The notes under the pieces are model-generated. The model searched no databases. It was not told the origin of the DNA and was given only the letters and a program-made list of their open reading frames with translations. Position numbers and translations under genes: made by a program. A DNA stretch of 37,450 nucleotides. Origin: PVC group bacterium. Lineage in GTDB: Bacteria; Verrucomicrobiota; Kiritimatiellia; SLAD01. Numbering within the stretch: the stretch's first letter is position 1; each line of letters starts with the position of its first letter. This document shows, piece by piece, positions 7,832-34,317 of the stretch. The stretch lies in assembly GCA_003562335.1 (NCBI GenBank), contig PWVE01000055.1, positions 1 through 37,450 of the forward strand, in the 5' to 3' direction.

Positions 7832-10258
7832 ATGACCGAGGACCTCGCCCACACCATTCAGGACACGGCGTGGCAGATACAGGATCCTGTCCTGATTTTT
7901 GCCTTAGTCATGTTGCTGATGCTACTGGCCCCAATGGGCTTCGCGCGCTTGCGGGTGCCCGGTATCGTCGGACTCATTGTGGCCGGCATTGTTGCCGGGC
8001 CACCGGGCTTTGGCTGGTTCGCGCTGGACACGACGTTTGAGCTGCTCGGCAAGGTGGGACTGCTCTATCTGATGTTTCTGGCCGGGCTGGAAATCAATCT
8101 GCGCGAATTCACCCGGCAGCGGCGGCATAGCCTGATATTTGGTGCGCTGACCTTCTTTATCCCGCAGGTCGGCGGGGCCTTGGCGGCGCGCGCCTTGTTC
8201 GGCCTATCGTGGCCTGCGTCGATTCTGCTGGCCAGCATGTTCGCCTCGCACACACTGGTGACCTACCCCATCCTGGCCCAACTCAACATCACCCGGTCCC
8301 GGGCCGTAACCACAGCCATCGGGGGCACTATTTTGACGGATTTGGCCGCGCTGTTAGTGCTCGCCATTGTCGAGCAAACCACCGCCGAAAGCCTGACTGT
8401 GGTCTTTTGGATGCGGCAGATTCTGTTACTCTTTCTGCTGGTATGGGCCATCCTGTGGGGGTTGCCTAAAGTCGGGTACTGGTTTTTTCGCCGGGCGCAA
8501 CCCGACCCCATCGCTGAATACCTGTTTATCGTGGCGGCGGCCTTTCTCAGTGCCTATGCCGCCCATTTAGCCGGGGTGGAACCGATTATCGGCGCCTTTC
8601 TGGCCGGCTTGGCCCTAGGCCCGCTGGCACCGGAAAACGGGGTGCTGCGCAACCGGATACAGTTTATGGGCCATGCCTTGTTTATTCCGTTCTTTCTCCT
8701 GTCAATCGGGATGCGGGTCGATATCACCATCCTGCTCACCGACCCGCGCGCTTGGGGCATCGCGTTGTTCATGACCATCGCCGTTCATCTGGCCAAGTGG
8801 CTGGCCGCTCAAGGTAGCGGTCGCTGGCTGGGGTATACCCGGGCGGAACGGAATTTGGTGTTCGGTATCAGCGTTAATCAAGCGGCCGCCACCTTGGCGG
8901 CCGTGCTGGTGGGCGTACGCATTGACTTGTTCGATGTGTCGATATTGAACGGCAGCATTTTGATGATTTTGGTTTCGTGCATTGTCGGTGCTTGGGCGAC
9001 CCAACGGTATGGCCGACAGGTCGCATTGGAAACCGTTCCCGTCCGGTCTGTAACCGGTGCCGGTGACCGGATACTTTTGCCGTTGAGCAACACCGATACC
9101 GCGCCCGCCTTGATTGAACTGGCTTGTGCCATGCGCCCGGCAGATTCCGCCGCACCGCTGTACCCGCTCAATGTGGCCTTGGACGGACCGGACGCAGAAC
9201 AACATCTGGCGGTCGGCGAAGCCTTGCTGGAAGCCGCCGTGGTACATGCCGTCGCCGCCGATGTTCCCGTTGAAGCGTTAACCCGGGTGGATGTCAATCG
9301 GGCTGGTGGCATCATTCGCGCCATTCGTGAAAAACGGGTACATACGGTCATTCTGGGCTGGCAACGCAGTGAACGGGGGGGGAGCCTGTTTTTTCAGAAC
9401 CTGTTGGATCAAGTGCTGGAGTTGACGCCCACCCAGCTCTTCGCCACCCGCTTGCCGCAGCCCGTCAATACCACCGCCCGTTTGATGGTCCTGCTCCCCC
9501 CGCAAGTGGAACACCAAGCCGGATTCCATGCCACCATCCAGCAAACCCGACGACTAGCCACCAATTTAGGTGCTGAGCTGTGGCTGTTCGGCAACCCTGA
9601 AATGCAGGGCACGATGGCCACCTGGCCGGACGCGGGCGCGTTGCTGGCCCATTTCCACAGCTATACCCGGTGGCGCGAATGGCCCACCTGGCTGGCGGGG
9701 CAGGTCCGCGAATCCGATATGCTGGTGATGGCACAGGCGCGGCGTGGTAGCGCGGCGTGGCACCCGCGCATCGAACGCAGTCTGCAACAACTGGACGCCG
9801 CCTATCCCCACCACAATCTACTCATCGCCTATCCGGCCCAACAGGACGCCACGCCCGTCGCGTCGGTGCCGCCGACCGAAGACACGCCCATCCAGCACGT
9901 GCTCAAGTTAGCACCCGACCTGTCGGTTGACGCCATGATCGCCCCCTTGGCGGCCCGTATGGTACCCGACGCGGCCACGCACATTGCGCAGGCCCTACAG
10001 GAACTGGAACCACTCGAACTTCAGGAAGGCATTTTCCTCCTGCACACCCACACCCCGCACGTGACGGGTACGGTAAAGGGATTGGCCTTTTCCGAATCAT
10101 CTGCAGCGGACACCCCGGACCGGTTGGTTTTTGCCCTGTTGTCCGCCAAAGACCTCTCGCCCGAAACCCACCTCCAGGCACTGGCCGCCATCGCCCGCTT
10201 GGTGCGCTCACCAGAAGAACTGGCCCAAGTCCGGGCCACGGCAATGGACAATGATTAG
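7832..10258 (+). CDS. CPA2-type cation:proton antiporter with C-terminal UspA-like region
   Basis: Multiple TM helices, GLIVAGIVAGPPGFGW, FLAGLEINLREF, GAFLAGLALGPL; long soluble C-terminus. Confidence 0.85.
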   Translation: MTEDLAHTIQDTAWQIQDPVLIFALVMLLMLLAPMGFARLRVPGIVGLIVAGIVAGPPGFGWFALDTTFELLGKVGLLYLMFLAGLEINLREFTRQRRHSLIFGALTFFIPQVGGALAARALFGLSWPASILLASMFASHTLVTYPILAQLNITRSRAVTTAIGGTILTDLAALLVLAIVEQTTAESLTVVFWMRQILLLFLLVWAILWGLPKVGYWFFRRAQPDPIAEYLFIVAAAFLSAYAAHLAGVEPIIGAFLAGLALGPLAPENGVLRNRIQFMGHALFIPFFLLSIGMRVDITILLTDPRAWGIALFMTIAVHLAKWLAAQGSGRWLGYTRAERNLVFGISVNQAAATLAAVLVGVRIDLFDVSILNGSILMILVSCIVGAWATQRYGRQVALETVPVRSVTGAGDRILLPLSNTDTAPALIELACAMRPADSAAPLYPLNVALDGPDAEQHLAVGEALLEAAVVHAVAADVPVEALTRVDVNRAGGIIRAIREKRVHTVILGWQRSERGGSLFFQNLLDQVLELTPTQLFATRLPQPVNTTARLMVLLPPQVEHQAGFHATIQQTRRLATNLGAELWLFGNPEMQGTMATWPDAGALLAHFHSYTRWREWPTWLAGQVRESDMLVMAQARRGSAAWHPRIERSLQQLDAAYPHHNLLIAYPAQQDATPVASVPPTEDTPIQHVLKLAPDLSVDAMIAPLAARMVPDAATHIAQALQELEPLELQEGIFLLHTHTPHVTGTVKGLAFSESSAADTPDRLVFALLSAKDLSPETHLQALAAIARLVRSPEELAQVRATAMDND

Positions 10259-13200
10259 AACGTGTACAGCGCAGAGCCGCTCACCGTGTGTTCGGTGTAT
10301 TCGTCGGTGGCATTGACGCTGAATTCGGTCGACAGTTTCAGTCCGCTCTCGAAGGTCCGGCTGACCGTGCCGGCAAATCCGATCATGCGTTCCCAGCCCC
10401 GACGGGGCCCGGCACCCGGCGACCAACCTTCGGCTTCGCCACGCGCCAGGGCCGTGGCAAATGCATCGCGTTCCTCCCGGCGGACGCGACTCTTTTGCAC
10501 CCCGATATGGGCACGTACCATCCCAAAGTAATTGGGATAGCTCCGCCTCAATCGCAAAAGTAGGGCATGCCGTTGATCCCAAAACGGTGTCCAATACAGG
10601 TCACTGTCGCGATCTACGGTATCGACCATATTTTCCACACCGAACCATACGTCATACCGTTCCGATAACTGCCACAAATTCTCCAACTCCCCTTTGAGCA
10701 GGGAATTGCGGTCCTCGTAGTACGCAAAATAGGCCAGTCCATTGGCATGCCAATAATCCCGGATACGCCAAATCGCGCGGACACCTAAACTGTCGAACTG
10801 CAGCACTTCGCGCGCCGAGGGCACAATCCCGCGGTGATAGCGGGCCGCCATATCAATGGCCAGTACCGGTCGCCACTGATGCTCCAACGCAAAGGTGTAG
10901 GCCGTCTCATCATCAATATTGGAGCCGTCATACGTGTAGCGCCGGACTTCGCCCAGCGTAAAGGAGCCGGAGGGATGGGTGTGGTTCAACGCCAAGCCCA
11001 CAAAATCCTTGTCGGCATCGAAACGGGTCCGCTCCACTTGGTTGGACAACACCGTACGGGTCTCCACCGTGATCCGCGAACTGCGTGAGCGGGTCACTTC
11101 CCCGTTCTCAATACGCTCTTCTTCAACGCGCTGGCTCGACCGGGACGTTTCCTGCACCTCGACAAAACGATTGGTTTCGACTGTTTGCTTGATCCGTCCA
11201 CGACCCGCCCGCACCTGCAAGCCGGTGCGCCGATTCACGTATAGACCGCCGAAAATCGATGCTTCCCGATCGTCAATCATGATATTGGCCCGGGTGATTT
11301 GGCCTTCCACCCCGATGTGCGGTCGCCGCAAGGCAATGAATCCTTCCGGTTCGCCATCCGCTCCGCGCAGGTCTTCCGCCACTTCCGGCAACGCGGCCAA
11401 GCGGCCCAAGTGACGATGGATCATACTATTAACGTTGGCCAAATCCTCTTCTGGATAGCCGTCACGCTTCAGCAGCTCCGCCTGTTCCAGCGCAAGGTGT
11501 AAACGACCGGTCAGGGCCGCGATTTCGGCCCGCATACGGCGGGCTTGGAACACGGGGTGTTGCCGATACGCCGCGCGCAACACGTCGCGCGCGGTCGCCT
11601 GACGATCCGGCTGCCAGCGTTTCAACCACAGCGCATCATCGGTCTTTAGGCTGTAGCCATGCTCGTGTTGCATAAACCCTTGACGGTATACGGTATCGGC
11701 TTCATTCAAGACCACATCCGGGACGCGAAAGGCCTCGATATTGACACGCCCTTCCTGCCCGATTTCGCCTTCGGGATAGCCCACCGAGGTGATTTTTTCT
11801 TCGTCGATGCCAAGTTCCTGCGCCAGCACAGCGCGCGACTGGCGGAACTCGCGGCGCACGCGGACTTGGTATTCCCGCAAGGTTTCCAGTCGTCCGGCTT
11901 CCGGCAACCAAACCCGGTTAACCAACGGCAATCCCCACTCCGTTTCATCTTCCGATAGCGCCGCCAATTGACCGGCCGCCCACAATCGGCTGTGGATTTC
12001 CCACTGGCCCCCGGCATGGAATTCCCGAATTTCCTCAAAAGAAGCCACTTCGCGATGGTCCGGGGAAAGGACATCGCCCGCCCCGACAAACATGGCCGCC
12101 TGTATGCCGAGATCATCCATGATCTGGGTCCCGTACCGAAAAGAATTGCGGAAGCCGCCGTCGAACGTCAGCATGGCGACCATTTCAGGGGAATAGTCGC
12201 TTAGGTCGGTTTGCTTTTCCCGGCGCTCCCCGGTCCACGCATAGCGGGCGGCGTTCACCACCCGGTTCAACCACGGGCGGCGTTCCAGCCGGTTGGCCGG
12301 CTCTTTCTGGTCGAAGAAGGACGGCAGTTCGGACGGGGTGATAAATTGGAAGCCGGCCCGGCGCAATGTCATTAGCTGTGCCCGCACCTGGCGGGCCGAG
12401 GGGAGATGTGAGAACTCGCTGGGGCTGATTCCCCCGTAGAGCAGCGTGAACACGGCTCCTTGCGAACCTTCATATTCCAACCGGTCCAACGCGTCCAGAG
12501 CCGCCATCACTTCGCCGCGCGCCAAGCAGAGCCGGGCCCAATATAAATGGCGAAAGGGATCGTTGGCGTTCAGTACGTTATAATTCTCACGTAATTGCGC
12601 TTCCGCCCGGTCCAATTGCGAGCGCCCCAAATAGGTCTCCACCAACCCGAACAGCGCCCGGCGCGCGTAGGGATTGAACTCATCGAGGACCCGCTGAAAC
12701 ACCTCTTCGGCGGCGGCAAACTGCCGGTCGGCTGCCAGCATTTCCCCGTAGAATAGATGGGTACCGATGACGCTATCGTCATAGTCCAGCGAGATACGGA
12801 CCACCCGCAGGATCTGCGCGCGGCTAAAAAGGTCGGAGCCCTGGTCCAGAATGCTTTTCATGTAAACCGCGATGCGCATGGCCAATTCCGCTTTGGCGGA
12901 ATCTTCGTCGGTATAGTCCATTAACTGACGCAAACGCGTGACGGCCTCCTCGGGGCGCTTGCCGCGGACCGCCAAGTTGGCCAGGATATTCATGGCCTCT
13001 AAGTTGCGCGCATCAATTTCCAACACCTGTTCGGCATCCGCCCGTGCCGCGTCCAAATCCCCCAGCAATACCCAGACATTGGCGCGGGCCAGCAGAAAGG
13101 TGGGATTATCGGGAATCCACTCATTGATATTGTTCCAATGCACAATGGCTTCCTCGTACTGTTCATCGGTATAGAGGGCCCAAGCCAATTCGATTTCGAC

Positions 13201-13815
13201 ATCGATCCGGTCGGGGTCCTCCGCAAACAGCGTCTGCAACAGGCGCACGGCCTTGCGATACTGTCCGCCCCACAGCCAAACGCGCGCCAGGTTGAGCCGG
13301 ATATCGTACTGCTCGGGTTCCAATTCCAAGCTGGTGATGTAAAGCTCGGCGGCCCGTTCGAACTCCGCTTCGCGCGTGGCCACTTGGGCGAGCAGGTTAT
13401 AGCCCGTAGGTTCGTTCGGCGCGATGGTGACCAACCGGTTCCAAAGATCCTCGGCCTCCTCGCGCCGATCGGTGGACCAGTACGCCCATCCCAAACTGCT
13501 CCATGCTCCGATCAGGGTAGGATCTTTTTCGATGGCTTGCTCCAGCAGGGGGATCGCCTCATCGTACAGCTCATCCTGTGCGAGCGTCATGCCCTGGAAC
13601 ATCGCGGCCATGGCCGGCGTCACGGCCAATGCGTCTTCGGCGGCTTCTTCGACCGGATCGTCTTCCCATTCAAAAAGATCGTCAAACAGCGTCGGCGACA
13701 CCTCGTCAAACGGGTTCACCCCGTCTTCCGCGAGCTCCGCCATGCTCAGTGCCGTGCACACCAGCACCGTTACCAGGCCCGCACCGGATATCACGCGCAT
13801 GTGGGCGTGGCGCAT
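10255..13815 (-). CDS. Signal peptide + TPR array + PgaB-like (degenerate) polysaccharide deacetylase domain + outer-membrane beta-barrel (PgaA-like)
   Basis: TPR repeats at about aa 60-450; LPLVNRVWLPEAGRLETLREYQVRVRREF matches the PgaB deacetylase region; C-terminal third alternates like OM strands and ends SGSALYTF. Confidence 0.75.
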   Translation of the reverse strand: MRHAHMRVISGAGLVTVLVCTALSMAELAEDGVNPFDEVSPTLFDDLFEWEDDPVEEAAEDALAVTPAMAAMFQGMTLAQDELYDEAIPLLEQAIEKDPTLIGAWSSLGWAYWSTDRREEAEDLWNRLVTIAPNEPTGYNLLAQVATREAEFERAAELYITSLELEPEQYDIRLNLARVWLWGGQYRKAVRLLQTLFAEDPDRIDVEIELAWALYTDEQYEEAIVHWNNINEWIPDNPTFLLARANVWVLLGDLDAARADAEQVLEIDARNLEAMNILANLAVRGKRPEEAVTRLRQLMDYTDEDSAKAELAMRIAVYMKSILDQGSDLFSRAQILRVVRISLDYDDSVIGTHLFYGEMLAADRQFAAAEEVFQRVLDEFNPYARRALFGLVETYLGRSQLDRAEAQLRENYNVLNANDPFRHLYWARLCLARGEVMAALDALDRLEYEGSQGAVFTLLYGGISPSEFSHLPSARQVRAQLMTLRRAGFQFITPSELPSFFDQKEPANRLERRPWLNRVVNAARYAWTGERREKQTDLSDYSPEMVAMLTFDGGFRNSFRYGTQIMDDLGIQAAMFVGAGDVLSPDHREVASFEEIREFHAGGQWEIHSRLWAAGQLAALSEDETEWGLPLVNRVWLPEAGRLETLREYQVRVRREFRQSRAVLAQELGIDEEKITSVGYPEGEIGQEGRVNIEAFRVPDVVLNEADTVYRQGFMQHEHGYSLKTDDALWLKRWQPDRQATARDVLRAAYRQHPVFQARRMRAEIAALTGRLHLALEQAELLKRDGYPEEDLANVNSMIHRHLGRLAALPEVAEDLRGADGEPEGFIALRRPHIGVEGQITRANIMIDDREASIFGGLYVNRRTGLQVRAGRGRIKQTVETNRFVEVQETSRSSQRVEEERIENGEVTRSRSSRITVETRTVLSNQVERTRFDADKDFVGLALNHTHPSGSFTLGEVRRYTYDGSNIDDETAYTFALEHQWRPVLAIDMAARYHRGIVPSAREVLQFDSLGVRAIWRIRDYWHANGLAYFAYYEDRNSLLKGELENLWQLSERYDVWFGVENMVDTVDRDSDLYWTPFWDQRHALLLRLRRSYPNYFGMVRAHIGVQKSRVRREERDAFATALARGEAEGWSPGAGPRRGWERMIGFAGTVSRTFESGLKLSTEFSVNATDEYTEHTVSGSALYTF

Positions 13816-14540
13816 CAGCGGTCCGTGGCTCCCGGCTCGGCAAACAGATCGGCTATCAGGCGGTCGGCCAACAGATCCGCCCCGGCCCGGTTAAGGTGAA
13901 CGCCGTCCGCTTCGCGCACACGCAACGGCATCCCGTCCGGGCCCGCTACGTGCATGGAAAAAGTGCCCGGCCGCCTGCTAAATAATTCTGCGGCAGGATA
14001 AAAATCGACCTGTGACCGCTGCCCCGCCTCATCGGCCACCAGCTTGTTGATCAGTGCGATGTCATCGTTCAACCGGCTATCGCGCATCGGTGGCAATTCC
14101 AGCCAGATAACGCGCTGCTCGCTGCGCGCCGTTAATTTGTCCATCACGCGCGCCACGCGCCGGGCGTACTCGGCCGACCATTCCGCCTGTGCGCGCGGCT
14201 GGATGATACCGTCCCGGGTGCGCATGGGTTGCCGGTCGTTGGTCCCGAACCAGACCAGTGTCCATTCCGGGTTAAAGCCAGCCGTCAGCTCATCCACCCG
14301 CTCCATCCAATCGAACACGTCGAGGCGCGCCAAGCCGGATCCCAGCGATGTGACCGCGTGGGTCTCAACACCCTCCATCCGGCCCAACCGTTGCTCGAAG
14401 CTATGCGCCGGCATACGCATCATCGAGTCGCCAATTAACAAAACCCGAGCCGGCGTTGCCCATGCCGGCCATCCGGCCGCGCCCATCAATCCTACACACC
14501 AACACAGCGCCAAAAAACGTCGTTTACTAATAATGCTCAT
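13815..14540 (-). CDS. Exported SGNH/GDSL hydrolase, DUF459-like
   Basis: VLLIGDSMM (block I), WFGTNDRQPM (GxND), DGVHLN (DxxH); signal peptide. Confidence 0.8.
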   Translation of the reverse strand: MSIISKRRFLALCWCVGLMGAAGWPAWATPARVLLIGDSMMRMPAHSFEQRLGRMEGVETHAVTSLGSGLARLDVFDWMERVDELTAGFNPEWTLVWFGTNDRQPMRTRDGIIQPRAQAEWSAEYARRVARVMDKLTARSEQRVIWLELPPMRDSRLNDDIALINKLVADEAGQRSQVDFYPAAELFSRRPGTFSMHVAGPDGMPLRVREADGVHLNRAGADLLADRLIADLFAEPGATDR

Positions 14541-14815
14541 GGTTCATCCTCCAGCCAACCTTCAAAAATACGCCGAAATCGGTACACCCCTGTACGCGTC
14601 GCGACCGCGTTCAGCGGGGCCGTGGCGGTCATCCACGCGGTACGCACCGGTCCATACTCCCGGCGCGATGCCTCTTCGTAGATGGCCCGACCGTTCAGCA
14701 GGGCCGCCACCACGTAGAAAACGAAAAAGACCACTAACGCCTGACGAAACGGGATACCCGTGTTGGCGGCCGCGCGCCGGTCACCAATATCGATGTCGTG
14801 TTCCTCCTTACTCAT
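14537..14815 (-). CDS. Small single-pass membrane protein coupled to the SGNH hydrolase
   Basis: TM segment ALVVFFVFYVVAALL; ATGA overlap with the downstream SGNH gene; internal Met (MSKEEHDI) chosen as start. Confidence 0.6.
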   Translation of the reverse strand: MSKEEHDIDIGDRRAAANTGIPFRQALVVFFVFYVVAALLNGRAIYEEASRREYGPVRTAWMTATAPLNAVATRTGVYRFRRIFEGWLEDEP

Positions 14816-17201: not shown

Positions 17202-18833
17202 CTACTCCTCGTTGCGGGCGTGACTGGTCACCACCCATTTTGATAGTTCCCGGTCCGGATCCGCCACCACCGCATCCGTGATGGTAAACGCATCCCGTCC
17301 AGTATTGCGGGCTATAAGATTCAGCCCATATTCATAATTGCGGAACACCTCTTCGCAAACCGTGCGCATGGCTTTGCCGGTGGTGCGCACTTTGGCGCAC
17401 AGCGCTTCGATCGCGGCTTCTTCAAATATTAATTGCAGCCCGTGGACTTGGCGGAAGCGCTCCGCGAATTGCTGCACGTCCGCTTTCCATAAGTCCACTT
17501 GCGAATCGCGATTCCGCGCTAATAATTCCTGTAACGCCCGGTCGGGGGCCTCGACGGTTTCGGCATTGATTTCCAGCAATCTGACGCCCGTGGACGGCAG
17601 CTCAAACTTAAAATCGCGCAGGATGCGCTCCAGCACGGTCATTAAGCCGCGCGCGCCGGTCTTTTCCTCCTCCGCCCGGTGGGCGATGGCCTTGATCGCT
17701 TCCGATGTCGTGTGCAGCGTAATCCCGTAGCCCTGTAAATCCTCGCGGAACTGCAAGAGTACGCTGCCTTCCGACTTGACCAGTACCTGTTCCAGATCAC
17801 CCGCCGTTAACGGATCGCAAACCACCCGCACGGGCAAGCGCCCAATGAATTCGGGTTCAAACCCAAACTGGATAAAATCAGCGGTATTGACGCGCTGTAA
17901 ATAGTGGGCGTCGCGAGGGCCCGACGCCTGACCCGCTTCGTCGTGCGCAAAGCCGATACGGGACCGTTCCAAACGTGTGCGGACAATGTCCGACAACTTG
18001 TCGAACGCCCCGCTGACGATGAACAGCATATGACGGGTATTGATCGTGCGGGCCGCCGGACGGCCCCCGTGCCGCTGCATTTCCATGATGGCTTGCATCT
18101 GCCCGATCAAATCGGTCTGGCTGTGCAAGTTGACTTCCGTCTCCTCCATCAGTTTTAACAAGTTAATCTGTACCCCGCGACCCGATACATCCCGGCTACC
18201 GGCGGTTGAAGGCCCCGCAATCTTATCGATTTCGTCTATATAAATAATGCCGTAGCGCGCCCATTCGATGGAACCGTCAGCCGCCCGCACGAGATCCCGG
18301 ACAATGTCTTCCACGTCGTTCCCGACATAACCGGTCTCCGAAAACTTGGTGGCATCCGCTTTAACAAACGGCACCCCCACCAGCCGGGCAATACAACGCA
18401 TCAAATAGGTCTTGCCCACACCCGTGGGGCCCAGCAGGATAATATTCGGCTTGGCGTATTCCTGCTCCATGGTTTCCGGTTGCTCAATGCAGCGGCGCAC
18501 GTGGTTGTAGTGATCGCATACGGTCACGGCCAACACCTTCTTGGCCTCTTCCTGCTGCACCACGAAACGATCGAGATAATCCCGGACCTCGCGCGGCTTT
18601 AGGCTGAAGTCCCGGATACGCTGCAAAACCTGATCCTCCGCCTCGGGCTCGGAACCCTCCGGGGCGGTCGATGCCCCCGCAGTAGCCCCGCCCGCAAACA
18701 GATCGCTCCCGAGAAAGGCTGCTTGCGTCCGGTTCAGCAAGTCCATGAACTGCTGTTGCAGGTCATCGACCTCATCATGGGAATCATCAGCCATCGGTTT
18801 TACGGACTGGTTCATAGGACGGGCCGGACGCAT
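17202..18833 (-). CDS. ClpX-like AAA+ unfoldase without zinc-binding domain
   Basis: [12 protein letters not shown] Walker A, IIYIDEIDKIA Walker B, GYVG pore loop, RIGF loop, sensor-2 TGARGLMTVLERILRD. Confidence 0.85.
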   Translation of the reverse strand: MRPARPMNQSVKPMADDSHDEVDDLQQQFMDLLNRTQAAFLGSDLFAGGATAGASTAPEGSEPEAEDQVLQRIRDFSLKPREVRDYLDRFVVQQEEAKKVLAVTVCDHYNHVRRCIEQPETMEQEYAKPNIILLGPTGVGKTYLMRCIARLVGVPFVKADATKFSETGYVGNDVEDIVRDLVRAADGSIEWARYGIIYIDEIDKIAGPSTAGSRDVSGRGVQINLLKLMEETEVNLHSQTDLIGQMQAIMEMQRHGGRPAARTINTRHMLFIVSGAFDKLSDIVRTRLERSRIGFAHDEAGQASGPRDAHYLQRVNTADFIQFGFEPEFIGRLPVRVVCDPLTAGDLEQVLVKSEGSVLLQFREDLQGYGITLHTTSEAIKAIAHRAEEEKTGARGLMTVLERILRDFKFELPSTGVRLLEINAETVEAPDRALQELLARNRDSQVDLWKADVQQFAERFRQVHGLQLIFEEAAIEALCAKVRTTGKAMRTVCEEVFRNYEYGLNLIARNTGRDAFTITDAVVADPDRELSKWVVTSHARNEE

Positions 18834-30111: not shown

Positions 30112-31548
30112 ATGAATGAAACGACATCAATCCCGGCCAGCCCTGCTATTCCCGTGCCGCCTTTTCGCTACACGCATCGGCTTTGGCAAAATGCGGGCTG
30201 GATTATGCTGGGGGACTGTCTAGCCCTCATCTTCGCGTTAACGGCCAGCGGACTGCTCCGGCATATCCTGCGGGGCGACGCGCTGATTCCGCCTTGGAGC
30301 TGGCTGATTCTACCGGTGTGGTTGAGTGGTGCCCTCGCCACCAACGTGACGCCGGGCTGGGGGATGGGTCCGGTGGAACATTTGCGTAAAGTGGTGGTCC
30401 TGCTGACCGCCGCCTTCGCTTTAGCGTCCGCCGCACTCTTTCTGACCCAAACCGCAGCCGAGGCCAGCCGCTTTACATTGACCAGCGCGTTCTTCATCAG
30501 TTGCGTTATGGTCCCGTTCATTCGCGTACGACTCAAAGGGGAACTGTTGCGGCTCGGGAAGTGGGGGATACCCACCGTCATTTATGGCCGGGACGAAACG
30601 GCGGCACACGTGCTCGAGGCATTGGACGCCGAGCCGGGACTCGGGTATGTGCCGGTCGGCATATTCGACGATGAATCACGTCGGGGCAGCTTGATCGACG
30701 GCATACTCGTTCTGGGCGGGCTGAGCGATAATACCGATAACGCCCCTTACGCCATTCTCACCACCAGCCAAACCAGCCGGGAGGAATGTATCCGGCTGCT
30801 GGAAGGTCCCTTAAAAATTTACCGGCGCGTGATCCTTATCCCGGACCTGTTGGATGCACCGTCGCTATGGGTTACCCCGCGCGACTTTATCGGACTGGTG
30901 GGATTGGAGGTAGCGGTCAAGCTATTGAATCCCATGGCCCGGTGGAGTAAGCGGGTGGCGGATATCGTGATGGTAACGTTGACTGCTCCGCTGTGGCTTC
31001 CGGTGTGCGGCCTGCTGGCCGCGGCCATCTGGTTGCAGGACCGTCATTCCCCCTTCTTTATTCAGGAACGCGTCGGCTACCAGAATAAACGGTTCAAAAC
31101 CTACAAATTCCGGACCATGCATCCCAACGCCGAAGAACTGCTCGCCCGGGAAATTGCCACCAATCCCGAAGCAGCGGCCGAATGGGCGCAGGAATGCAAG
31201 CTGCGTGACGACCCGCGCGTAACGCGGGTGGGTGCCTTTCTGCGCAAAACTTCCCTGGACGAGCTACCCCAACTCATCAACGTACTGCGCGGTGAAATGT
31301 CGCTGGTCGGCCCGCGGCCCTTGCCGGAGTACCATTACGATCAGCTGGCCCCCGCGATCCGGGAACTGCGCGAACGGGTCCGGCCCGGTTTGACCGGACT
31401 GTGGCAAGTATCCGGGCGCAGTGAGGCCGGGACCCCGGGCATGGAACGCTGGGACGCCTACTACGTGCGCAATTGGTCGGTCTGGCTGGACATTGTTATT
31501 CTCGTGCGCACGGTACGCGTTGTGCTGACGGCGCAAGGAGCCTATTAA
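30112..31548 (+). CDS. Undecaprenyl-phosphate sugar phosphotransferase (WbaP-like polyprenyl glycosylphosphotransferase)
   Basis: N-terminal TMs; KRVADIVMVTLTAPLW, RFKTYKFRTMHPNAEE, LRKTSLDELPQLINVLRGEMSLVGPRP, RPGLTGLWQVSGRS. Confidence 0.92.
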   Translation: MNETTSIPASPAIPVPPFRYTHRLWQNAGWIMLGDCLALIFALTASGLLRHILRGDALIPPWSWLILPVWLSGALATNVTPGWGMGPVEHLRKVVVLLTAAFALASAALFLTQTAAEASRFTLTSAFFISCVMVPFIRVRLKGELLRLGKWGIPTVIYGRDETAAHVLEALDAEPGLGYVPVGIFDDESRRGSLIDGILVLGGLSDNTDNAPYAILTTSQTSREECIRLLEGPLKIYRRVILIPDLLDAPSLWVTPRDFIGLVGLEVAVKLLNPMARWSKRVADIVMVTLTAPLWLPVCGLLAAAIWLQDRHSPFFIQERVGYQNKRFKTYKFRTMHPNAEELLAREIATNPEAAAEWAQECKLRDDPRVTRVGAFLRKTSLDELPQLINVLRGEMSLVGPRPLPEYHYDQLAPAIRELRERVRPGLTGLWQVSGRSEAGTPGMERWDAYYVRNWSVWLDIVILVRTVRVVLTAQGAY

Positions 31549-31552
31549 CATC

Positions 31553-33778
31553 ATGAGACAGATACGAAAACTAGCGTGCCTTCTCGCCCTGTTGAGCTTC
31601 AACCCGATTGGGGGGTGGGCGGGTTTGGCGCCACAAGAAGTCGCCGTGCTGGTAAACGCCAACTCCCTGGCATCCAAAGAGGTGGCGAATCATTTCGTGC
31701 ACATGCGCCACGTGCCACCGCAAAATGTAATCTACCTGAATGTGCCGGCAACGGCGCTGACCGCCCGGGCCGAGATTTCGCCGGAAGCCTTTACCACCCA
31801 TATATGGGAACCAACCCTGAAGACCCTTCAAGAACGCGGGCTCGATAAACACGTGCTGGCCTGGATCTATTCAGTCGATTTCCCGGTAAGGATCACGACG
31901 CGCCCGCGCACCTCGTTGATGGGCATGACCTTTTTGCGCAACCAGTTTCCGGACGATCCCGAACAGGTGGACAAGGGCCTTTACCTGTCCCCGTTATACG
32001 CCGGGCCGGACGCGCCGGACGCGCCGCAAACGCCGGGGGCCTCGCTGCTGCGTTACCGGGAGCATCTGGACACCGCCATGCCCGTACCCAGTATGATGCT
32101 GGGGCACGTCGGCGCACGCGGCACCACCGTCGCCACCGTGCTGCGTAGCCTGCAACAAGGCGTTGCCGCCGATGGCAGCGCCCCGCGGGGCACGGTCTAT
32201 TGGCATCAGTTGGAAGATATCCGTACGGAGATGCGATCGTGGCAATTCCCGCTGGCCCAAAGCGAACTGCGCGAGATTGGCGTGGCCGGTCAGGTCCTGG
32301 ACGGACTACCGGGAGAGGCCAACGACATCATCGGCTTGCAAGTGGGGCGTGCCGACATCAACGCGTCCGGTGCCGGACGGCATCAAGCTGGCAGCATGGC
32401 TGAACATTTAACGAGCCACGCCGGTGAGTTTCACCTGGCCCGTCAGACCAAATTGACCGACTGGATACGCGCAGGCGCGACCGCGTCGGCCGGGACCGTA
32501 ACCGAGCCCTATTCCATTTGGACAAAATTCCCGCACGCACGGTTTTTCCCACACTACGCGCGGGGACACACGATGCTCGAGAGCTTCTATCTCTCGATTC
32601 GCAGCCCCACCCAAATCCTCCTCGTCGGTGAGCCATTGGCCCGCCCATGGGGGCGTCCACAACGGTTGACCGTGATCACCCTCGAAGACGGCCCGCTAAG
32701 CGGGCCAGCGTCCTTTGTGATCGCCCCTATGCCGCCGGGCCCTTTGCTCTACCGGATTTGGCTTAATGGCCAACTACAAGCCGCGCCCTCCGGTTCCACC
32801 CAGTTTCAGTTTGATACCCGCCAACTGCCCGACGGCTATCATGCACTACGCGTCGGCGCCCACCAACGCGGCATCCATGTTCACAGCGGGTTCGGCAAGC
32901 TGGATCTCGAGATCAACAATCACGGGCGGGCCATTACCATTACATCCCCGGAACAGCGGGCCGGGCAGGATTGGCAGTCGAGCGTGGTGGTCAAGGTGTC
33001 CACCCAGGGCGACCCGGAAAGGATTGAATTGTGGCACAACGAACGACGCTTAGCGATGAACGCCGCCGACGCGGCCGAACTCCGGGTTGACGCCCGCCAA
33101 TTGGGGCCCGGTCCCGTCCGGCTGCAGGCCCGGGCGATCTACACCGACGGCATGGAAGTGCGTAGCCCACCGCGCCTGATCATGGTCGAACGGGAAACCC
33201 CTGAACCCGCCATCGCCGAACTGGCACAGCGCGATGCAGCGGGACAACGCCAAACCTTGGACGCCGGTCAAATGGCCTGGTCCTCGGAGGAGGTCGAAAC
33301 GACCACGCAGGACGGGTTTCAGATTAAACCCGGCGACAATCGTTACGACGCGGGCTTCTGGCCGGACAAATATGCGGCGATCAAATCGTTTTCAGTTCGG
33401 TTTGAGGTGCCGTCGGCCAGGTCCATGCATTCGCAAGCGGAACGCATTGGCTTGATATTTGGAGCGCAGGCGCACGACACGTTCGACCATTTCATGTTCC
33501 ACGGCGGGGTCAGTGCCTGGCGATTCGGCCAGGTACAGGCGGAACGCACCACGACGGCCGTGGAACGGGGCTATCCGTTTCTGCGCGGACAAACCTATCA
33601 AGTGGATTTAATTTTTGACGACGCCCAGGTCACGGCATTTGTTGATGGCGAACAAATCGCCACCTGGACACGTAACGAATCGTTACCTGCAGGTCGCATC
33701 GGGCTGTTGGCCGGTGGGCAACCGGTGACAATTCATGCCGTGCACGTCGACGGCCGCCTGCAAGAGGATGCCCCATGA
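31553..33778 (+). CDS. TIGR03790-like family protein with C-terminal lectin-like domain
   Basis: EVAVLVNANSLASKEVANHFVHMRHVPPQNVIYL...AFTTHIWEPTLKTLQE...VLAWIYSVDFPVRI; C-terminal FVDGEQIATW...GRIGLLAGGQPVTIHAV. Confidence 0.75.
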   Translation: MRQIRKLACLLALLSFNPIGGWAGLAPQEVAVLVNANSLASKEVANHFVHMRHVPPQNVIYLNVPATALTARAEISPEAFTTHIWEPTLKTLQERGLDKHVLAWIYSVDFPVRITTRPRTSLMGMTFLRNQFPDDPEQVDKGLYLSPLYAGPDAPDAPQTPGASLLRYREHLDTAMPVPSMMLGHVGARGTTVATVLRSLQQGVAADGSAPRGTVYWHQLEDIRTEMRSWQFPLAQSELREIGVAGQVLDGLPGEANDIIGLQVGRADINASGAGRHQAGSMAEHLTSHAGEFHLARQTKLTDWIRAGATASAGTVTEPYSIWTKFPHARFFPHYARGHTMLESFYLSIRSPTQILLVGEPLARPWGRPQRLTVITLEDGPLSGPASFVIAPMPPGPLLYRIWLNGQLQAAPSGSTQFQFDTRQLPDGYHALRVGAHQRGIHVHSGFGKLDLEINNHGRAITITSPEQRAGQDWQSSVVVKVSTQGDPERIELWHNERRLAMNAADAAELRVDARQLGPGPVRLQARAIYTDGMEVRSPPRLIMVERETPEPAIAELAQRDAAGQRQTLDAGQMAWSSEEVETTTQDGFQIKPGDNRYDAGFWPDKYAAIKSFSVRFEVPSARSMHSQAERIGLIFGAQAHDTFDHFMFHGGVSAWRFGQVQAERTTTAVERGYPFLRGQTYQVDLIFDDAQVTAFVDGEQIATWTRNESLPAGRIGLLAGGQPVTIHAVHVDGRLQEDAP

Positions 33779-34317
33779 GTCGGCCCTGCGTATTTTTTGA
33801 TCGTGACGGCATTGTCAACGAATCGCCCGGCCCCGGCTATGTGGAACGTGTAGCCGACTTCAAACTTGTGCCCGCTTTTTTCGACGCCTTGCGCGTGGTG
33901 CGGGACCGTGGCTACGCAGCGGTCATTGTCACCAACCAGCGCGGGGTAGGACGGGGCCTCATGTCACGGGCAACCTTGGACGCCATTCACGCCGTCTTAC
34001 GTGCGGCCTGTGCAGAACGCGGGTGCCCGCTGTTGGCCATTTACGATTGCACCGCCAATGATAATACCGATCCGCGCCGCAAACCGAATCCCGGCATGTT
34101 GTTGCAGGCCGCCCGCGAGCACGACCTGGATTTGTCCCGGTCCTGGATGATCGGAGACAACGAAAAAGATGTCCAAGCCGGTCAGCGCGCCGGGTGCCGG
34201 ACCATTTTGGTGCACCTGCAACCATCCGTCACCAGCGCCGATCATGTGTTGCCCGCCATGGAAAAGCTCCCGCCGCTGCTGGAAAAAGTACTGGCCAACG
34301 CAAAAACGCTGGATTAG
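33775..34317 (+). CDS. HAD-IIIA phosphatase, GmhB/HisB-N-like
   Basis: FFDRDGIVNE, VIVTNQRGVGRG, RRKPNPGML, SWMIGDNEKDVQAG. Confidence 0.85.
   Translation: MSRPCVFFDRDGIVNESPGPGYVERVADFKLVPAFFDALRVVRDRGYAAVIVTNQRGVGRGLMSRATLDAIHAVLRAACAERGCPLLAIYDCTANDNTDPRRKPNPGMLLQAAREHDLDLSRSWMIGDNEKDVQAGQRAGCRTILVHLQPSVTSADHVLPAMEKLPPLLEKVLANAKTLD

Follow-up and report, generated by a model that had tools for sequence, protein, structure and literature searches.

The window analysed here, a contiguous stretch of 37,450 nucleotides, contains on its minus strand an open reading frame (positions 10255-13815) that encodes a protein of 1186 amino acids (P0001) with the C-terminus SGSALYTF, a length and an ending that the initial annotation gave with no strand; on the plus strand, stops occur throughout these positions. 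Reading the sequence suggests a signal peptide at roughly aa 1-26 (13738-13815). There follow a TPR superhelix of 22 helices (aa 67-451; 12463-13617), recognised from Pfam TPR matches and the structural model, a polysaccharide deacetylase fold of the PgaB-type CE4 class (aa 454-735; 11611-12456), recognised by profile, model and Foldseek, a four-helix linker seen in the model (aa 742-802; 11410-11592), and finally an outer-membrane barrel of 16 strands (aa 830-1186; 10258-11328), for which we relied on models, Foldseek and a Pfam scan of the family. Just upstream, and also on the minus strand, lie a PatB-like SGNH/DUF459 protein (13815-14540), which retains GDS, GTND and DGVH blocks and overlaps the porin start by one base, and a small protein with one transmembrane segment (14537-14815). 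On the other side, a plus-strand gene (7832-10258) converges on the porin gene and overlaps it by four bases; its product is a Na+/H+ antiporter of the CPA2 type that carries a Usp domain and may end in a weakly PTS EIIA-like segment. Scans for promoters and terminators returned signals at chance level.

The domain order was modelled with AlphaFold2 from a 47-sequence family alignment (pLDDT 87.0, pTM 0.77), which yields 11 TPR pairs across aa 67-451 and an alpha/beta domain at 454-735. Four helices (742-802) then lead to 16 strands within 830-1185, among them one very long hairpin (aa 864-946; 10978-11226). This is the arrangement that the initial annotation had proposed, with TPRs at 60-450 and a PgaB-like fold at 455-740, boundaries that prove correct to within about 10 residues; it had also anticipated a barrel of 14-18 strands. 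Pfam, applied to the window protein itself, reports the TPRs along with a sub-threshold match to Polysacc_deac_1, a match found in 42 of 45 family members. Because the Foldseek list for the whole protein consists mostly of generic TPR matches, we modelled the C-terminal 387 residues separately and compared the barrel alone. The same 16 strands and the same long hairpin are recovered (pLDDT 88), and the top matches are BcsC (6tzk and 9b8a) and PgaA (4y25), with PelB (9h80) at rank 9, so that an earlier barrel call made from amphipathic alternation and a terminal aromatic residue now has two models and a Foldseek top ten containing BcsC, PgaA and PelB behind it. The three proteins named are all exopolysaccharide porins linked to TPRs. 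Note that this placement came from fold comparison only: the barrel profile found no match when searched against PDB sequences, and among 43 family barrels nine match OMP_b-brl and three BCSC_C (weak). Family proteins mostly end in an aromatic outer-membrane barrel signature such as YRF, YTF or YNF. From topology and model together it follows that the CE4 domain would be positioned at the periplasmic mouth of the pore.

The identity of the middle domain is apparent at the level of both sequence and fold. Its profile matches the PDB sequences of a polysaccharide deacetylase (4wcj), PgaB (4u10, 3vus and 4f9d) and BpsB (5bu6) with E-values between 1.4e-16 and 4e-12, and Foldseek aligns the whole model to PgaB (4f9j and 3vus) with a TM-score of 0.79 over the N-terminal domain. 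Together, these IcaB/PgaB-type matches place the domain in the PgaB/IcaB branch of CE4, in keeping with the fold originally suggested for this segment. Unlike PgaB, the window protein has no C-terminal glycoside hydrolase domain (TIGR03938): in the model, CE4 is succeeded by four helices and then the barrel. The domain also differs from PgaB and IcaB in being fused to an exporter and in having lost its metal ligands, a point to which we return below.

How does this protein compare with known exporters? With PgaA it shares a predicted TPR superhelix that leads into a barrel of 16 strands (TM-score 0.72 to 4y25 in Foldseek), and the barrel profiles match weakly (hhalign probability 67). PgaA, however, carries no CE4 insert, and the window protein scores only 33.3 bits against the PgaA model TIGR03939, in the TPR region alone and against a cut-off of 366.65, where a true PgaA from the same class scores 520. 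The label "PgaA-type" given to the protein earlier is hence apt for its mode of working but not for its family membership. BcsC and PelB, among the best fold matches of the barrel, are likewise TPR-plus-barrel exopolysaccharide porins, but neither has an enzyme-fold domain between the two parts. The nearest parallel for the fusion as such is the BcsZ-BcsC fusion known in Zymomonas (PMC7112194), where a periplasmic polysaccharide enzyme is also joined to an export porin; that enzyme is a cellulase rather than a CE4 protein, and the system is a different one. In the literature we searched, we found no earlier account of a PgaA/PgaB or deacetylase-porin fusion.

The fusion is real and well-defined, is widespread in Kiritimatiellae, and represents a new form of TPR-porin exopolysaccharide exporter. 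Looking for the same architecture in related genomes, as the initial annotation had recommended, we counted about 44 out of 146 with a strong match (best E-value under 1e-40), all of them members of the class Kiritimatiellae. Across 390 genomes of the phylum strong matches were likewise confined to this class, the best match outside it being a true PgaB at 55 bits. When 85,462 species genomes were scanned, 70 loci emerged, all family members except L131 and L132; note that the scan patterns were derived from the window's own family, so that distant fusions elsewhere could escape, and that coverage outside the phylum was pattern-based only. Full-length proteins with the same domain order in dozens of genomes rule out chance or an assembly join as the source of the fusion. 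Of 126 CE4 domains placed in a tree (built with a quick method and midpoint-rooted), the 88 porin-fused domains form one clade with support 99, separate both from PgaB and from a group of inner-membrane CE4 proteins. Other classes of the phylum carry a separate-gene pgaA-pgaB-pgaC operon in which all three genes exceed curated cut-offs (L167), and a candidate for such an operon exists within Kiritimatiellae (L172), where PgaA was scored and lies above its cut-off. The single clade and the separate-gene operons are most simply explained if the fusion was one old event rather than the general state of the phylum.

Several loci depart from the one-gene, one-domain layout. At L043 (7454-18184), L044 (5734-17127), L054 (3386-12046) and L104 (6483-13349), two or three genes of the porin family stand in tandem, and tandem copies often combine intact and degenerate CE4 domains (L043, L044, L102, L104). 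Two reading frames are very large: one of 1695 aa with two CE4 domains (L060, 7547-12631) and one of 1795 aa with one CE4 domain and barrel-like matches (L179, 6849-12233). In the genome from which the window derives (G000), contigs C235 (L010) and C142 (L011) carry porin-family segments that are 89% identical over 963 bases, a similarity that could stem from a recent duplication or from differing strains in the MAG.

Turning to the active site of the window copy, the family alignment reveals losses at all three metal-ligand positions. In motif 1 (aa 550-555; 12151-12168), TFDGGF replaces the family's TFDDG, so that the base Asp552 is kept and the metal ligand Asp553 is lost. In motif 2 (aa 605-616; 11968-12003), which reads WEIHSRLWAAGQ where the family has W..GSHL.xA[H/S/N/G], the metal His has become Arg610 and position 615, assigned as the second metal His by the H-x4-H spacing of PgaB/IcaB, is Gly. 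The LLYHG motif (aa 458-462; 12430-12444) has Gly in place of His461, a residue present in 41 of 47 sequences. The Asp-His-His metal triad is thus absent (Gly553, Arg610, Gly615), and in the resulting ligand state, DGRG, Asp552 is the sole survivor; the YPxGE(I/V)GQ motif is retained. Across the family, 34 of 84 sequences have DDHH, about 32 lack the last His only (with Ser, Asn, Gly, Ala or Thr instead), and the remainder are more degenerate or incomplete; D-D-H is present in most porin-fused rows. Since many members lack the second metal His, the share of fused domains that are active is uncertain. Within the window's own genome, a copy on C23 retains all ligands (HDDHH) and one on C142 reads DDQE.

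We considered whether sequencing error at the catalytic motifs might account for these losses and rejected this, since an ortholog in the same genus, 63-76% identical, has the identical residues G553, R610 and G615. This ortholog is flanked by the same SGNH and small-protein neighbours as the window gene. Comparing the two, dN/dS is about 0.19 for the CE4 domain, 0.08 for the TPRs and 0.06 for the barrel, values that are rough because dS is near saturation. That a congener shares the ligand losses while dN/dS remains low suggests that the CE4 domain is kept but is probably not catalytic, and we predict from its residues that the window CE4 is a pseudo-deacetylase. The earlier description of the segment as a deacetylase accordingly stands as regards the PgaB/CE4 fold but not as regards predicted activity.

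There are two scenarios in which the window domain would not be a conserved non-catalytic module. It might still deacetylate with the help of a non-canonical metal site: Asp552 and the YPxGE(I/V)GQ motif persist, and the second His varies in some other family members too. We consider this improbable given that Asp553, His610, His615 and His461 are all replaced, the first three identically in the congener, and that metal in PgaB is coordinated by D115 and H184 (PMC13366581), with the H49A and D114A variants of Bordetella bronchiseptica PgaB being inactive (PMC5933820; residues in the numbering of that protein). Alternatively, the gene might be a decaying copy without function, as the missing catalytic residues, the missing MBOAT neighbour and the quicker evolution of the CE4 domain (2-3 times that of barrel or TPRs, relative to dS) could be taken to imply. 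If so, we would not expect an intact frame of 1186 aa, a retained C-terminal barrel signature, dN/dS well under 1 across the folded domains and a same-genus ortholog flanked likewise by SGNH and small-protein genes; we give this scenario little credence.

Relatives of the window gene reside in a recognisable exopolysaccharide locus with the order GT2 synthase, inner-membrane CE4/LamG-like/TPR protein, MBOAT protein, small one-TM protein, SGNH (DUF459) protein and porin. Among 51 porins with flanking sequence, MBOAT is found within 10-15 kb in 35 cases, the CE4 protein in 32 and GT2 in 26, and SGNH lies within 10 kb of 39 porins and within 500 bases of 30. The combination of MBOAT and a PatB-like SGNH/DUF459 protein resembles O-acetylation systems of the PatA/PatB and AlgI/AlgJ type, from which the Kiritimatiellae locus differs by a third small membrane protein and by its linkage to the fused porin. 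The window retains the conserved small-SGNH-porin cassette (10255-14815). It differs from a pga operon in that its porin has no adjacent synthase, and there is no adjacent MBOAT either; GT2 and CE4 genes are found on C142 and an MBOAT gene, the only one in the 2.66 Mb of this genome, on C132, and we infer that these are the partners of the window porin. Of the two GT2 proteins on C142, one scores highest against NodC, followed by PgaC/IcaA, and the other highest against PgaC/IcaA. These references are all hexosamine polymerases, and every score falls short of its cut-off. In the relatives, too, the locus departs from pga, with a GT2 nearer to NodC and a protein in the PgaB position that lacks the metal triad.

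Genes for a response regulator, a KaiC-like ATPase and an ExeA-like AAA ATPase recur near the exporter locus (L050, 6908-9156, and many other loci) and are possible regulators of polymer production. Elsewhere in the window, a minus-strand gene (17202-18833) encodes a ClpX-like ATPase of 543 aa, which at 347.7 falls narrowly short of the ClpX cut-off of 359 and exceeds the 418 positions of the model in length, and plus-strand genes at 30112-34317 for a bacterial sugar transferase, a protein of 741 aa that gives a weak LamG-like match and a HAD phosphatase make up a possible second polysaccharide locus.

The strongest mechanistic hint that we obtained comes from the separate CE4 protein encoded beside GT2, which a hydrophobic N-terminal segment, as we read it, would anchor in the inner membrane. 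In 27 of 28 cases it lacks the Asp-His-His triad, typically with D/E-H/Q and Q/E instead, compared with DDHH in 7 of 10 PgaB-like sequences of the phylum. Although the motif 2 alignment in this group is uncertain by about one residue, no alignment restores the second Asp. These CE4/TPR proteins (L009, L011, L043, L045, L050, L058 and others) share a conserved non-canonical set, T-F-D/E-H/Q ... G-A-Q/E-S, suggesting either a family-wide pseudo-enzyme or a repurposed site. With the metal site lost from the protein in the PgaB position, the part of working de-N-acetylase probably falls, family-wide, to the fused domain; on paper, the competent-looking deacetylase of these systems is the one fused to the exporter. 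This triad loss and the ligand loss in the window copy are the points that go beyond the initial annotation.

Two further readings concern what kind of device the protein is and how it arose. TPR_Slam matches the TPR region, so that TPRs and barrel might constitute a Slam-like apparatus for protein secretion or surface lipoproteins instead of a polysaccharide exporter. The TPR matches are generic, however, the barrel is closest to BcsC and PgaA with PelB near, and the locus of relatives holds a GT2 synthase, a CE4 protein and an MBOAT, making this very unlikely. Equally doubtful is that PgaB was put into PgaA by a recent local gene fusion. The fold is the same, as is the functional pairing in E. 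coli, but a recent event sits poorly with a deep porin-CE4 clade standing apart from PgaB and inner-membrane CE4, with the absence of the glycoside hydrolase domain, and with above-cut-off pgaA-pgaB-pgaC genes in the phylum and an above-cut-off PgaA in the class itself.

We therefore favour, with good though not full confidence, the view that the product of the window gene serves a synthase-dependent exopolysaccharide system of Kiritimatiellae as its outer-membrane exporter, the CE4 domain being non-catalytic in this copy and deacetylation being left to another. The grounds for this explanation, the best available, were computed here: architecture, homology, locus conservation, ligand losses and purifying selection. 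We infer from them the substrate, the passage and direction of the polymer, its O-acetylation and the non-catalytic or gating role. An inner-membrane GT2 synthase would make and extrude the polymer, which the TPR superhelix would guide across the periplasm to meet the fused CE4 domain just below the pore, before release through a barrel of the BcsC/PgaA/PelB class; MBOAT, small protein and SGNH protein would probably O-acetylate it. The CE4 domain of the window copy has most likely been kept as a module that binds the polymer or gates its passage without catalysis, and another copy in the genome would take over deacetylation. The PgaA TPRs nearest the outer membrane bind the deacetylase domain of PgaB non-covalently in E. 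coli (PMC9384988), so that the fusion would make a known contact permanent. Pushing the argument further, the catalytic deacetylase may have left the PgaB position, now occupied by a conserved pseudo-enzyme, for the exporter, coupling deacetylation to pore entry, and in some paralogues, including the window copy, the pore-embedded domain may then have become a conserved non-catalytic polymer-handling module; we would give this evolutionary account about even odds.

A natural single-chain fusion fixes the geometry of a scaffold-deacetylase contact that is non-covalent in E. coli, which makes the fused exporter well suited to cryo-EM. Matched versions, some active-looking and others inactive-looking, could be used to ask whether deacetylation must occur at the pore. 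Cultured Pontiella strains, members of the Kiritimatiellae, make N-sulfated polymers that probably contain hexosamine (PMC7356697). N-sulfation in Pontiella would need free amines, and one might speculate about a tie to the fused porin family, should Pontiella carry such a gene. More generally, the exopolysaccharides of Kiritimatiellae are poorly known, and the fused porin is a candidate for the system that exports them.
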